A stretch of DNA of 64,000 nt, taken from positions 992,001 through 1,056,000 of the forward strand of contig NZ_CP045293.1 of the NCBI RefSeq assembly GCF_009363075.1, read 5' to 3'. The notes under the pieces were generated by a model. It worked only from the letters and a program-made list of their open reading frames with translations. It was not told the DNA's origin and made no database searches. The position numbers and the translations under genes were made by a program. This document shows positions 9,505 to 14,130 of this stretch, piece after piece. Positions within the stretch are counted from its first letter, which is position 1; each line of letters starts with the position of its first letter. Source of the DNA: Paenibacillus guangzhouensis (lineage in GTDB: Bacteria; Bacillota; Bacilli; Paenibacillales; Paenibacillaceae).

Positions 9505-10026
9505 ATGAAAGTGGGAGAGAGCGGCATGATTGTACATAAAGGAGATATTTTGTTCCGACAAGGTGATTCGGGGGAACATTTGTATCATATTAAGAGCGGC
9601 ATTTTCAAAGTGACGCGTATTCATCCAAATGGGAATCAGGTGCTGTTCAACATCCTGTATCCAGGTGAAATTGTTCCGCATCATTCATTGATTACACCAA
9701 AGGATTTTCACGGAACCGCAACAGCGATCGTAACCAGCGAGGTGGAATTGATTTCGGCAGAGGCGTGGTATAAGGAGCTGGAAGAGAATCCGGACAAAGC
9801 TCTATCCATTGCCAAAATGCTGCAGGAGAAGCTGCGATTCATGCAACAGCGTATTGATCATCTGACGATTGGTACGCCAGGAGAACGACTGAAGCTGTTG
9901 GAAGAATGGATGTCCAGCTATGCCAAGAACGAGACGCTAACGGATTTGTTAACGCAGGAGGAGATCGGACAACTGATTGGCGTACGCCGTGAGACGATCA
10001 ACCGCTTACTGCGCAGTCAAGGATAA
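9505..10026 (+). CDS. Crp/Fnr-family transcriptional regulator
   Basis: A 173-residue regulator, shorter than Crp (about 210). The cyclic-nucleotide-binding beta roll spans about residues 5-90 (GDILFRQGDSGEHLYHI, GEIVPHHSLI). The dimer helix is at about 95-118. The C-terminal HTH ends in EEIGQLIGVRRETINRLL, the usual Crp-family recognition helix. No iron-sulfur cysteine cluster is visible, so it is not an Fnr of the 4Fe-4S kind. It faces hmp tail to tail, and a Crp/Fnr-type operator lies at the hmp promoter, so control of nitric oxide defence is a reasonable guess. Confidence 0.85.
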   Translation: MKVGESGMIVHKGDILFRQGDSGEHLYHIKSGIFKVTRIHPNGNQVLFNILYPGEIVPHHSLITPKDFHGTATAIVTSEVELISAEAWYKELEENPDKALSIAKMLQEKLRFMQQRIDHLTIGTPGERLKLLEEWMSSYAKNETLTDLLTQEEIGQLIGVRRETINRLLRSQG

Positions 10027-10061
10027 CCAAGACGCCTACGAACATAGGATGAACAACATTC

Positions 10062-10103
10062 AAGAGGCCTTATTGTCATGAAGACAACAAGGCCTCTTTC
10101 TTA
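10062..10103. terminator. Bidirectional terminator between the Crp-like gene and hmp
   Basis: AAGAGGCCTT (10062-10071) pairs with AAGGCCTCTT (10089-10098); an inner TTGTC/GACAA extends the stem with small bulges. TTTCTTAT follows on the plus strand. Confidence 0.8.
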
Positions 10104-10118
10104 TATCCATACAGATCT

Positions 10119-11345
10119 TTAGGCTTCCAAGCTGCCAGCAGGTCCGAAGAATTCATAATGAATGCGATCTGGACTCACGCCTAGCTGTTTCAATGCATGG
10201 TTAACAGCTTTCATGAATGGCGTCGGTCCGCAGAAGTAGAACTCGCCCGTATGGAGCGTCGCTGCTGGGAGGATCGATTGCAGCCATGCAGCATCGATCA
10301 GGCCTTCATGATCACAGCGGTCGCCCGCGATCGGTGAGGCGTAGCATACATAGGATGTCAACGGCGCAAGCTGTTCGGTTAGCGCCGTCACGTGGTCTCG
10401 CATCGCATGCAATTCGCTATTGATCGCAGCGTGAATATAGGTTACTGACCGGTCTGGCTGCTGCGCAGCGATCGTATTCAGCATACTCACCATCGGCGTG
10501 AGTCCAACGCCTCCGCTGATGAGCACGACAGGCGCATCGCTGCCATTCGCTGGGTCAATCGTGAAATCGCCAGCTGGCGCGCTAATGTCGAGTGCATCTC
10601 CCACATGGACTTGATCATGCAGATAGTTCGAGACGATGCCGGCAGGCTGCTGCGGTTCGGTTCCGGCTTCTCTTTTAACTGTGATACGGTAATAGCTTAG
10701 CCCAGGCGCATCCGATAAACTGTAGTGCCGCAGATGCGTGTTCGCACTGCCAGGTACGTTAGCACGAACGGTAATGTATTGTCCAGGCAAGAAGGAGGCG
10801 ATCGCCTGACCATCGGCAGGTCTGAGATAGAATGACGTAATCACGCTGCTCTCCTGCTCTTTGCGCGTTACGATGAACTTGCGGAAGCCGTCCCAGCCGC
10901 CGAGCTGTCCCGCTGCTTGCGCGTACATCTCTGCTTCGACGCCGATGAATGCGTCGGCGATTACGCCGTATGCTTCAGCCCAAGCGCCGATAATCTCATC
11001 GGTTGCAGCGTCGCCGAGCACATCTTTGATCGCGATTAATAGATGTTCGCCGACAATCGGATAATGTTCCGGCTTGATACCGAGCGCGCGGTGCTTATGT
11101 CCGATTTGCTTAACGACGGGAATGATCTGCTCGAGCCGATCAATGTTCGCTGCAGCCGCATAGACCGCATTGGCGAGTGCACCGGATTGTTTGCCTTGAC
11201 GTTGATTCGCATGATTGAAAATATTTAATAGTTCAGGATGATTCGTGAATAGCAGCTCGTAGAACCGTTTCGTAATGGCTGTCCCGTGAACCTCGAGGAC
11301 AGGAACAGTAGATTTAATGATGGCAATTGTCGATGGATTTAACAT
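10119..11345 (-). CDS. hmp: Flavohemoglobin (nitric oxide dioxygenase)
   Basis: A 408-residue flavohemoglobin, which oxidises nitric oxide to nitrate with O2 and NAD(P)H. The globin domain is about residues 1-137, with the proximal histidine in KQIGHKHRALG near 85. The FAD domain follows, about 150-255, with RHYSLSDA binding flavin. The NAD domain is about 265-408, with GGVGLTPMVSML and FYFCGPTPFM. AAGAGGTT lies 6 bases upstream of ATG 11345. A near-perfect Crp/Fnr palindrome sits 17-32 bases before the start, overlapping the early transcript. Length and motifs are complete. Confidence 0.95.
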   Translation of the reverse strand: MLNPSTIAIIKSTVPVLEVHGTAITKRFYELLFTNHPELLNIFNHANQRQGKQSGALANAVYAAAANIDRLEQIIPVVKQIGHKHRALGIKPEHYPIVGEHLLIAIKDVLGDAATDEIIGAWAEAYGVIADAFIGVEAEMYAQAAGQLGGWDGFRKFIVTRKEQESSVITSFYLRPADGQAIASFLPGQYITVRANVPGSANTHLRHYSLSDAPGLSYYRITVKREAGTEPQQPAGIVSNYLHDQVHVGDALDISAPAGDFTIDPANGSDAPVVLISGGVGLTPMVSMLNTIAAQQPDRSVTYIHAAINSELHAMRDHVTALTEQLAPLTSYVCYASPIAGDRCDHEGLIDAAWLQSILPAATLHTGEFYFCGPTPFMKAVNHALKQLGVSPDRIHYEFFGPAGSLEA

Positions 11346-11361
11346 GGTAACAACCTCTTTT

Positions 11362-11377
11362 CGTGATATATGTCACA
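11362..11377. promoter_or_regulatory. Crp/Fnr-type operator at the hmp promoter
   Basis: CGTGA-TATATG-TCACA matches the TGTGA-N6-TCACA palindrome at 9 of 10 defined bases. On the minus strand a TATACT -10 lies upstream, so the box would be near or just past the start of transcription, a repressor position. Confidence 0.6.
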
Positions 11378-11469
11378 CGTATTGTTCTAAGTATAGTTGG
11401 CACCTATACTAGCAAATGTGATTTCGCGCACACGAAAAATAGAACGTCTTGTGAACAAACAAGCTTCAG

Positions 11470-11484
11470 AATTGTCTGACAATT
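11470..11484. promoter_or_regulatory. CodY-like box
   Basis: AATTGTCTGACAATT is a perfect 15-base palindrome. It matches the CodY consensus AATTTTCWGAAAATT at 13 of 15 positions, with two symmetric differences. It lies about 30 bases upstream of the -10 of the yitT leader promoter. Confidence 0.55.
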
Positions 11485-11509
11485 TCGCCTTCCTGAAAAA
11501 ATGGATCTG

Positions 11510-11518
11510 TGGTATAAT
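11510..11518 (+). promoter_or_regulatory. Extended -10 promoter of the yitT leader RNA
   Basis: TGGTATAAT is a perfect TGn-TATAAT extended -10 element. The -35 region (about 11490-11495, TTCCTG) is poor, which extended -10 promoters tolerate. Transcription should begin near 11525, leaving a leader of about 268 bases before the coding region. Confidence 0.7.
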
Positions 11519-11524
11519 GATGGC

Positions 11525-11792
11525 AGATGAGCTTTAAAATCTAAATCAGAAAGGATCAGGATACCATGTGTCCCCGAAGGACGAATTCCCAAAGGACAGT
11601 CTGGAAACGTTATGATCTCTCCTACACTTAGCGTCATAGTTGGAAGTTTACACGTCGACAAGTTCGAATGACCAACCAACTATGAAAGAAGCGTGTAACG
11701 TATGATGGTGCGAAGGACGAAGCCTCAGGCGAGCTCCCTCATCGTTGGTTGGAAAGCTAAACCCAAACCAATGATGTTAAGAGGGAACGACA
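11525..11792 (+). ncRNA. Structured leader RNA of the yitT-family gene with two exclusive folds
   Basis: This 268-base leader has no credible gene. CATAGTTGG (11635-11643) pairs with CCAACTATG (11676-11684), and TTACACG (11648-11654) in its loop pairs with CGTGTAA (11692-11698), making an H-type pseudoknot. Downstream CATCGTTGGTT (11740-11750) pairs with AACCAATGATG (11766-11776), and CCCT (11736-11739) with AGGG (11782-11785) of the ribosome binding site. In competition, CCAACCAAC (11672-11680) is the perfect complement of GTTGGTTGG (11744-11752), which would break both stems and free the site. This is the layout of a translational riboswitch. I do not recognise its class. Confidence 0.6.
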
Positions 11793-12431
11793 ATGAGGAG
11801 AAAAGAAGAACGGATTCAACAGTTGCAACAAGTCGCTATGATGTTAGTCGGTACGTTTTTAATGGCATTTTGTTATTATCACATTAATTTTCAGAACAAT
11901 TTGGCGGAAGGCGGGTTCGTAGGTCTAGCGTTGCTGGGCAAGTACGCCTTTGACTGGTCGCCAGCCGTGACGATGCTGATGCTCGACATTCCAATTTTCA
12001 TCGTCGCCATGTTCGTGAAAGGGCGCAAGTTCTTACTGAATACAGTGATTGCGGCAGTTTCCCTTTCCGTGTTTTACGACATTTTTGAGCAGTTCTCACC
12101 ACTTGTAATTGACTTGAAGAATTATATGCTCGTCGCAGCGGTGCTTGCCGGGGTAATAACCGGATTCGGTGCCGGGATCGTTATTCGATTCGGCGGAGCA
12201 ACAGGCGGGGATGATATTCTCGCGTTATTCTTAAGTAAATGGTCAGGTTTTACGGTCGGAACCATGTTCTTTATATTGGATGCTGTCGTGCTATTATTAT
12301 CACTCGTATACTTACCAATTGCAGAGACGCTGTATACCATTTTGGCTGTGAGTATCGCAGGCAAGATGATTACATGGGTCGTCGGATTCGGATTCTCGAA
12401 GAATGCTGTATCCATTGCTGCAAGGAACTAA
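11793..12431 (+). CDS. YitT-family integral membrane protein
   Basis: A 212-residue membrane protein with about five or six hydrophobic segments (near 15-32, 38-52, 58-75, 80-98, 112-132 and 155-205). It contains the GGFVGLALLGKY and GFGAGIVIRFGGATGGDD motifs of the YitT/DUF161 family. Most relatives carry a C-terminal DUF2179 domain of about 55 residues; here the protein ends after the membrane part. Transport substrate unknown. GAGGG (11781-11785) precedes ATG 11793 and can be hidden by the leader RNA. Confidence 0.85.
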   Translation: MRRKEERIQQLQQVAMMLVGTFLMAFCYYHINFQNNLAEGGFVGLALLGKYAFDWSPAVTMLMLDIPIFIVAMFVKGRKFLLNTVIAAVSLSVFYDIFEQFSPLVIDLKNYMLVAAVLAGVITGFGAGIVIRFGGATGGDDILALFLSKWSGFTVGTMFFILDAVVLLLSLVYLPIAETLYTILAVSIAGKMITWVVGFGFSKNAVSIAARN

Positions 12432-12442
12432 CGTACATGACA

Positions 12443-12491
12443 ACCACCCTGTATCTCTCTTCTGAAGAGGGATGCACAGGGTGGTTTTTTT
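12443..12491 (+). terminator. Terminator of the yitT-family gene
   Basis: ACCACCCTGT (12443-12452) pairs with ACAGGGTGGT (12476-12485). The T tract runs through 12491. The loop holds a smaller CTCT/AGAG stem. Confidence 0.9.
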
Positions 12492-12519
12492 GTATTTACT
12501 TTTTTATGTGTGGATGTTG

Positions 12520-14130
12520 TTAAGAATCCGGGTGCAGCAGCTTCTCGTTCACTTCGCGGATCGCTTGCTGTAACCCCATTTGATTATAGGTCTTGACATT
12601 CTCCCGCCAAAGTTGGATAGGATCGTCCTTGCTCAGCACGACTTCCGTCAGATCTTCCAGCGGATTAATCGCAGCACTGAGGTCGTCTTTGTGCGGCGTT
12701 GATAGCGAGATGATCGAATATTTGAATGGGGTGGCCCTTGCATTGTTCAGCAGCCAGCGCATCTCCTCGAGACAAGCGAGAATATTCCGCTCTCCATAAT
12801 TGATTTTGTTCATTTCGTCGAGACGATAGGTTCGCTCCAGCCCCCATGAAGCAAGCGAATGCAAGGTATTGGTTGAAGGGTACAGCTTCTGAATGCTGAT
12901 CGGTTGTCCTGACGCTTCACGGGGCCGCGTAATCACAATCTGATCGTCGTTCTCTACATAATCTTTTCCTTCAATCCCGTACTGCATTAATTTTCTTCCT
13001 TCGGGTGAGAGGAGATAATCATAGAGCTGCATGATGCGATCCATTTTCTCATCGCTGATAGCGGAGCTGAAGTAACTCTCGGTCGCGTAGGTAGGTGCAA
13101 CATAGAAGTAGCGATTTCCATCATCCGCAGGCCACAAATGCAAGATTTTCACCGCATCATAGAAGTCCTGGTTCGGATTCGATTTGTTCCACAGTGCAAC
13201 CAGCTTGCTCATGCTCTCTGGCGTTCCCTTATAGGCGAGTGCTCCTGCTTTTCCTTGCGTGAACTTGGCGATCGCGTCATCTTCCTTCATGAGGAAGAAG
13301 TTCGGATCTAGCCCGCCGCTCTCATATAATTGACGGAATTGCGATGCAACCTGCTCCATTTTCTGCGAGGCGTAATATGGAATCCACCGATTATCCTCCT
13401 GCACCCACTGATTTGCGGCGAATTGCGGGAAGGTCGGACTGAATACCCAAGAGAGATAGTTCATGCTTGCGGCCGTCAGCCCCACGGTATCATGCAGGCC
13501 GTTGCCATCCGGATCATCTTTGGTGAACGATTCGAGCAGTGTTGCGAACTCTTCGAAATTGCGCGGATCGATGCGATGCAGTTGATCCATCCAGTCTTTA
13601 CGGACGAATACGACACGTTCCAGCATCCACAGATCATTGGTCGGATACGCGATGCGCGGCAGCATATATAATTTCTTATCACGGCGCAGCGCGAGCGTAT
13701 CGGGAATTTGCGCAACTTTATAGACATTGGGATATTTCGATAGATCGCTCGGCAGCGGCCGAATGAGATTTTGTTTGATCCAGTCGGCATAGATGCCGGG
13801 TGAGTTAATGACGAGGGAATGGGCGAATAAATCGGGGAAATTGCCTGAAGCGGCCCATACTTTGAATTTCTCCTCGTAGTCAGTCTGGCTCACTTGAATT
13901 GGCTTAAAAGTAATATTGAAGTCGTGTTCGAGCTTCTGCAGCACGGCATCTTTCTTCTCGAAGTCTCTGCCGATGTCCCAGAAGGAGATGGAGATGGTGA
14001 GGTGGTTGCCGATCCCGGATGCGGGCTCAGCTGACGGCGCCACGGCGTCTTCTGTCTCCTCGCATCCCGTAACCGTCATGATGAATAGGGCAGTGAGCAG
14101 CAGTATGACGTAATTTTTGATACGGACCAT
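12520..14130 (-). CDS. Extracellular solute-binding lipoprotein (LplA/YtcQ-like)
   Basis: A 536-residue lipoprotein. The signal peptide ends in lipobox TVTGC at about residues 19-23. The mature part is a family-1 solute-binding fold, and a DPDGNGLHD calcium-binding loop near 205-213 is typical of the long LplA/YtcQ type of sugar-binding protein. It lies divergent from the sensor kinase gene, sharing a 155-base promoter region. No permease is on its strand, so it may feed the transporters of the downstream locus or act as a sensing partner. GGGGTGATGGA precedes the ATG. Confidence 0.85.
   Translation of the reverse strand: MVRIKNYVILLLTALFIMTVTGCEETEDAVAPSAEPASGIGNHLTISISFWDIGRDFEKKDAVLQKLEHDFNITFKPIQVSQTDYEEKFKVWAASGNFPDLFAHSLVINSPGIYADWIKQNLIRPLPSDLSKYPNVYKVAQIPDTLALRRDKKLYMLPRIAYPTNDLWMLERVVFVRKDWMDQLHRIDPRNFEEFATLLESFTKDDPDGNGLHDTVGLTAASMNYLSWVFSPTFPQFAANQWVQEDNRWIPYYASQKMEQVASQFRQLYESGGLDPNFFLMKEDDAIAKFTQGKAGALAYKGTPESMSKLVALWNKSNPNQDFYDAVKILHLWPADDGNRYFYVAPTYATESYFSSAISDEKMDRIMQLYDYLLSPEGRKLMQYGIEGKDYVENDDQIVITRPREASGQPISIQKLYPSTNTLHSLASWGLERTYRLDEMNKINYGERNILACLEEMRWLLNNARATPFKYSIISLSTPHKDDLSAAINPLEDLTEVVLSKDDPIQLWRENVKTYNQMGLQQAIREVNEKLLHPDS

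Follow-up and report, generated by a model that had tools for sequence, protein, structure and literature searches.

The locus analyzed here raises the question of what reads the long, structured leader in front of a YitT-family gene: a small molecule bound by the RNA, or the ribosome. The window, a stretch of 64,000 nucleotides from Paenibacillus guangzhouensis, carries this gene on its forward strand (11793..12431). An earlier note on the sequence had assigned it to the YitT family, and this is borne out by a match of the 212-residue product to YitT_membrane (PF02588, E=7e-44), the sole family reported by Pfam; no DUF2179 match was returned, and the protein is of the short form. The same note had read the leader as a riboswitch candidate built around an H-type pseudoknot. 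Our findings support another answer: in place of a small-molecule riboswitch, the leader probably forms a switch driven by ribosomes that pause on a leader peptide. From sequence comparison, we regard as very likely a translational attenuation of the ermC/ermB kind, in which arrest at the stop codon of a short upstream open reading frame (uORF) would free the yitT ribosome-binding site (RBS). A regulatory RNA does lie here, as had been claimed; its conserved core, the uORF, had been overlooked.

The uORF (11566..11631, forward strand) runs for 21 codons from the ATG at 11566 to the TAG at 11629-11631 and encodes MCPRRTNSQRTVWKRYDLSYT, as read from the sequence and its relatives. Upstream lies an extended -10-like promoter element, TGGTATAAT (11510..11518, forward strand), recognized by consensus only, from which a transcript start at about 11525 is expected; in 66/115 loci a similar element, again a consensus match only, is found no more than 75 nt before the uORF. 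The Shine-Dalgarno (SD)-like sequence of the uORF, AGAAAGGA (11548..11555, forward strand), which we take to match the 16S 3′ end, sits inside the block GAAAGGATCAGGATACC (11549-11565), which precedes the start codon and is without variation in 55 distinct sequences from the window's family. The CCCGAAGGA stretch (11572-11583, codons 3-5) is also nearly invariant in that family. Both are conserved beyond the needs of the SD and of coding, and an extra role in the RNA is possible.

The distribution of the leader follows its coding part. When the leader was compared by blastn with 98 genomes of relatives, 25 matches were obtained; in most other genera the match was restricted to about 11508-11635 (80-91% identity), and in one genus (L004) more of the leader was matched, at 77% identity. 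A degenerate pattern for codons 10-18, searched in 296 genomes of the order, matched 139, with one site per genome among the matches listed, and its reversed control matched none. From the window's family, 115 loci were read, which come from part of the 139 genomes, some twice, and hold 102 distinct leaders and 44 distinct uORFs; without exception these loci contain the ORF of 21 codons and, after it, yitT. As in ermC-type attenuators, a small ORF preceded by an SD-like sequence stands immediately 5′ of the regulatory hairpins, in 115/115 loci and beyond. In the phylum sample (398 genomes) the core pattern was present in seven, every one from the window's family. A sequence-only model (R1) reached further, matching 88/398 Bacilli genomes: 37 in the window's family, 33 at E<=1.3e-4 in four other families (f32, f27, f38, and f21), and 18 at E 0.001-0.1 that are probably chance. 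All 33 strong matches in the four other families lie 136-158 nt 5′ of the start of a same-strand YitT tblastn alignment, and all 37 in the window's family lie 141-214 nt 5′ of one. A scan of named contigs, partly the same genomes as the other sets, gave 33 labelled Paenibacillus, Brevibacillus, Aneurinibacillus, Ectobacillus, and, once, Anoxybacillus; yitT comes next in 31, and the other two are cut at the end of the locus.

This linkage concerns one branch of a larger family, the window's genome alone holding nine YitT-family matches. Among 59 relatives, a short-form orthologue (at least 218 bits) is present in 14 genomes, and the uORF accompanies it in 14/14, against 0/45 of the genomes that lack it; the 45 have YitT matches of at most 127 bits, and since the absence of the uORF was judged by blastn, a diverged one could escape. 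In the class sample, a YitT match above 180 bits was found in 107 genomes; the R1 uORF is present in 70 of these, and the other 37 belong to family f26, so that outside f26 the uORF goes with 70/70 orthologues. In f26, all 16 loci fetched from the 37 genomes hold a different uORF of 15 codons, MDTER[TI]..LF.LPDF, before the yitT orthologue, its stop context likewise being TAG-C. The first helix (arm 1) includes the last uORF codons in 7/7 folded leaders of f26, and in these seven the yitT SD is hidden by a second hairpin; the alternative pairing of arms 2 and 3 (GGGGAGAG against CCTCTCC) was seen by eye only, the fold having ended inside arm 3.

Is the uORF translated into something that matters? 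Since the loci of the pattern search were chosen by codon pattern, the coding test was run on loci picked by nucleotide similarity (blastn). Across codons 10-21 of 16 distinct uORFs, 11/15 distinct substitutions are synonymous (expected 0.21, P=2.3e-5); the signature is confined to frame 0, the other two frames of the same uORFs showing none, and codons 2-9 give 4/14 synonymous changes, which is not significant. In the other families, 20 loci fetched through R1 show 15/28 synonymous changes in the last 11 codons (P=1.7e-4). Judged by these substitutions, the 3′ half of the uORF is under selection as a peptide, in which W13 and D17 are invariant. The conservation extends into the stop: TAG followed by C occurs in 115/115 loci of the window's family, found by a search that left the stop free, and in 164/164 entries of a wider table, in 49 of which the TAG, though not the C, belonged to the search pattern. 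By comparison, just 9/44 long ORFs of the window end in TAG. Conservation at the end of the nascent chain nearest the peptidyl transferase center, extending to the bases around the stop, suggests arrest at termination; a chain conserved up to the stop and an invariant UAG-C were both observed, and from these we infer the arrest itself.

Beyond the stop codon lie four arms, all on the forward strand, the helix of arm 1 starting 2-3 nt after the stop. Arm 1 (11634..11643) forms, in the minimum free energy (MFE) fold, a helix with 11676-11685, its CATAGTTGG (11635-11643) being complementary to CCAACTATG (11676-11684). Arm 2 (11672..11685) can pair with arm 1 or arm 3; arm 3 (11736..11752) with arm 2 in the on-fold or arm 4 in the off-fold; and arm 4 (11766..11785) contains the yitT SD, AGAGGG (11780-11785), hidden in helix 3:4. 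As described in the earlier note, CATCGTTGGTT (11740-11750) and AACCAATGATG (11766-11776) form an 11-bp hairpin continued by CCCT (11736-11739) and AGGG, and the MFE fold of 11525-11792 contains this hairpin, with the SD closed, together with the 11635 helix. The exact complementarity of CCAACCAAC (11672-11680) and GTTGGTTGG (11744-11752) also stands, and with a swap test it bears out the claim that mutually exclusive folds precede the gene. In this test, native arms were compared with arms exchanged between species, using 19 representatives that are less than 75% identical and not phylogenetically independent. Native pairing was better for 1:2 (P=3.6e-5), 2:3 (P=1.9e-6), and 3:4 (P=9.5e-6), whereas the same-sense controls 1:3 and 2:4 did not differ in these 19 (P=0.45 and 0.46); arms 1 and 4 pair too (P=0.002). 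Helices of at least 8 bp are possible for 1:2, 2:3, and 3:4 in 19/19 representatives, and in 3,800 shuffles (19 spacers, 200 shuffles each) none matched all three native arm energies together, while a simpler criterion of fixed thresholds was non-discriminating (18/19 leaders vs. 68% of shuffles). The expectation of covariation held in part: complementarity is kept across species for 1:2, 2:3, and 3:4, but column covariation within clades is thin, the cells changed on both sides numbering 20 against 201 broken for 1:2, 19 against 281 for 2:3, and 9 against 199 for 3:4 over six clades. The off-fold is not uniform, since full MFE folds give 1:2 with 3:4 in 11/19 and 2:3 nested in 1:4 in 8/19. 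Overall, four arms that form either 1:2 with 3:4 or 2:3, arm 1 lying within ribosome reach, reproduce the ermC-type layout; as this is the layout of a classical stalling attenuator, a ribosome stalled over arm 1 is a likelier trigger than a ligand of the pseudoknot.

On the mechanism we propose, the transcript from one promoter would begin with a leader in which the 21-codon ORF is translated and the four complementary arms come after it. When the leader is finished normally, 1:2 and 3:4 (in some species 2:3 nested in 1:4) would form, burying the yitT RBS and keeping the gene off. Under some condition a ribosome would come to a halt on reaching the leader's end; its tunnel would then most likely contain the conserved nascent ...W-K-R-x-D-L-S-Y-T/I, and its A site UAG. 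Such a ribosome would cover arm 1 (presumably some 8-9 nt of it, from the footprint of a ribosome on the stop codon), and arm 2 would be available to arm 3 before the synthesis of arm 4 is complete; arm 4 would be left open and yitT translated. The stop-codon site, an inducer, and this direction of regulation are, like the arrest, what we infer from the arrangement. Folding gives evidence on both sides. To approximate a ribosome on the stop codon, the 11 nt past the stop were kept single-stranded; opening the SD arm then costs less in 19/19 leaders, in a comparison confined to native sequences, and in the window the cost falls from 14.4 to 7.7 kcal/mol. Even so, the masked leader at equilibrium still favors a closed SD, opening costing 2.5-10.9 kcal/mol in 19/19. 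Deleting the 11 nt after the stop raised SD accessibility in 5/19 and lowered it in three (P=0.26), with no change in the window leader; deleting 3 or 6 nt more gave six up and three down (P=0.07 and 0.04). Equilibrium folding by itself thus leaves the yitT RBS closed, and the switch would need co-transcriptional kinetics. A further point against the proposal is that in transcripts ending before arm 4, 2:3 often beats 1:2 even unmasked (mean 19.7 vs. 7.3 bp). The full ermB leader, according to one report, likewise folds in RNAfold into the start-hiding hairpin alone unless its 3′ end is cut (PMC11264731); given the same closed equilibrium fold there, the closed SD here is not decisive.

Could the same RNA switch be thrown by something simpler than a peptide-specific arrest? 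Slow decoding, with a shortage of charged tRNA for Arg, Trp, or Tyr codons stalling ribosomes on the leader, is an unlikely alternative, though one with some evidence in its favor: the CGA-AGG of codons 4-5 and the AGG of codon 10 are nucleotide-invariant in the 44 distinct uORFs, and among Arg codons AGG is the rarest in the ORFs of the window (9% of 780). Yet the leader has no run of a single amino acid, the Arg-Arg pair is absent from most of the 15-16-residue leaders of other families, and a stall at codons 4-10 would leave arm 1 uncovered. Nor would slow decoding call for an invariant UAG-C, or for constraint on the last 12 residues with synonymous change left free. The latter, together with the SD-like sequence, might also suggest that the uORF product is a functional small protein co-regulated with YitT, the hairpins merely hiding the RBS or stabilizing the mRNA. 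We hold this very unlikely, as the conservation is mainly C-terminal and runs up to the invariant stop, a different peptide stands at the same place in f26, and an alternation of arms 1-3 would be needless for a plain RBS hairpin.

The ligand riboswitch, in which a metabolite would stabilize or break the H-type pseudoknot and so hide or free the RBS, now appears highly improbable. The exclusive helices and the hidden RBS on which it was founded are real, as are 5′ nucleotides invariant past coding needs, and both pseudoknot helices are complementary where the earlier note had placed them (the second joining TTACACG, 11648-11654, to CGTGTAA, 11692-11698). In the window leader this loop-to-flank helix has 8 bp when G-U is counted, for which shuffles give a chance of 0.064, and it is retained in L003. 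Relatives nonetheless lend it no support: it is down to 5 bp in L002, whose leader is 97% identical, and in L004, and the longest such helix in the 19 representatives averages 5.79 bp, against 5.79 in shuffles. In the conserved block, 0/17 predicted pairs show change on both sides, and coding selection acts on the block's 3′ half; no conserved aptamer with covariation independent of coding was found in the leader. The note's statement that the leader fits no known riboswitch class agrees with Rfam 15, in which a search of 10000-14000 gave nothing at E<=5; in the loci of 15 relatives the matches were limited to tRNAs and a single c-di-AMP riboswitch at other places in these loci. Control by a ligand is thus unsupported, the most conserved part of the leader being a short coding sequence that ends just before arm 1. 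The window's sole Rfam match above threshold is a ylbH leader (RF00516, 56395-56521, 68.8 bits). CsrA, whose specificity is for GGA motifs, has equally little to recommend it: binding of a protein of this type to the leader's several conserved AGGA/CGAAGGA motifs, including one that falls between arm 2 and arm 3, with the uORF secondary, is barely credible, because the motifs overlap the SD-like sequence and codons and neither the C-terminal synonymous variation nor the arm alternation would be explained. In many of the 25 aligned relatives, the interval from arm 2 to arm 3 contains a motif like GCGAAGGAYGAAGTCCTC (11709-11727), which repeats the CGAAGGA of the leader ORF.

Attenuation by an arrested ribosome, the reading we prefer, has well-described counterparts. 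Like ErmCL and ErmBL of ermC and ermB, the leader combines a short uORF with alternating hairpins, the arrest and RBS exposure being proposed for our case; we know of no relationship between its peptide and these two. In the erm attenuators, arrest in a short uORF is reported to be the event that exposes the RBS or start of the next gene (PMC11264731, PMC10219788). The target here is a PF02588 membrane protein rather than a 23S rRNA methyltransferase, and the locus is not an erm operon. Moreover, unlike in ermC/ermB, conservation reaches the stop codon, suggesting arrest at termination over arrest at an internal codon. Termination arrest with a conserved nascent chain is known for TnaC and SpeFL of Escherichia coli, and W12 and D16 matter in TnaC (PMC8429421). 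W13 and D17 here share this W-x3-D spacing, perhaps by coincidence, but from the Trp to the last residue there are 8 residues against 12 in TnaC. TnaC further uses a UGA stop and controls Rho-dependent transcription termination, whereas UAG-C before an RBS-hiding hairpin leads us to expect translational control. Among Gram-positive bacteria, MifM-yidC2 of Bacillus subtilis offers another leader peptide whose stalling controls a membrane-protein-related gene, stalling being a proposal in our case. MifM monitors membrane insertion and has a longer chain; a leader peptide of 15-21 residues should, unlike MifM, stay within the tunnel.

Characterized arrest peptides are relatively few, and several of them revealed how the ribosome senses small molecules. 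The candidate cores described here are W-K-[RQ]-x-D-L-S-Y-[TI]-UAG-C and, in f26, LF.LPDF-UAG-C. We tentatively suggest, as a serious possibility that falls somewhat short of a likelihood, that they belong to a new family of termination-arrest peptides, which would respond, within the exit tunnel, to a small molecule or a state of the ribosome and turn on a dedicated YitT of the short form by translational attenuation; on that joint reading, YitT would import, export, or otherwise handle the signal. What makes the system notable is the short conserved C-terminus, the invariant stop context, the occurrence in several families of Bacilli, and a different counterpart before the same gene elsewhere. 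Among the matches listed in a search confined to open-access literature, subscription papers and preprints lying outside its scope, this leader is unreported, and in the papers found no function is given for this YitT branch. The identity of the inducer would give a first handle on that function and would also test whether termination arrest can drive RBS-opening attenuation in Gram-positive bacteria.

The surroundings of the gene and the variants of its leader add some detail. A terminator-like hairpin, ACCACCCTGT/ACAGGGTGGT followed by T6 (12443..12491, forward strand), was read from the sequence downstream of yitT; it is absent from the terminator scan, which permits loops of 3-8 only. The gene looks monocistronic. 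Upstream (9505-11345) lie a divergent flavohaemoprotein gene (NF009805) and one for a Crp/Fnr-type regulator; ORFs with a start similar to that of the flavohaemoprotein adjoin yitT in several relatives, whereas the four Brevibacillus loci listed show none. In the other families the leader ORF is shortened to 15-16 codons and the C-terminal end is kept, as in MRPHRTIWKRYDLSYI, MLPRRTIWKRYDLSYT, MGPYKTIWKRYDLSYI, and MLPSRQIWKRFDLSYT, each running to its stop; variants have WKQ in four loci and DLSDT in one (L148). In Ectobacillus funiculus (L193) the peptide of the yitT leader ends in MVARRSIWKRQDLSYT before the stop, and an apparent second short ORF, with the end TATATATAGC, lies between it and yitT, which is 218 nt downstream. 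Another locus (L153, reverse strand, 981-1134) carries two leader ORFs in tandem, MFPQSIWKRQDLSYT and MFPHFIWKRHDLSYT, each with its stop, before a single yitT.
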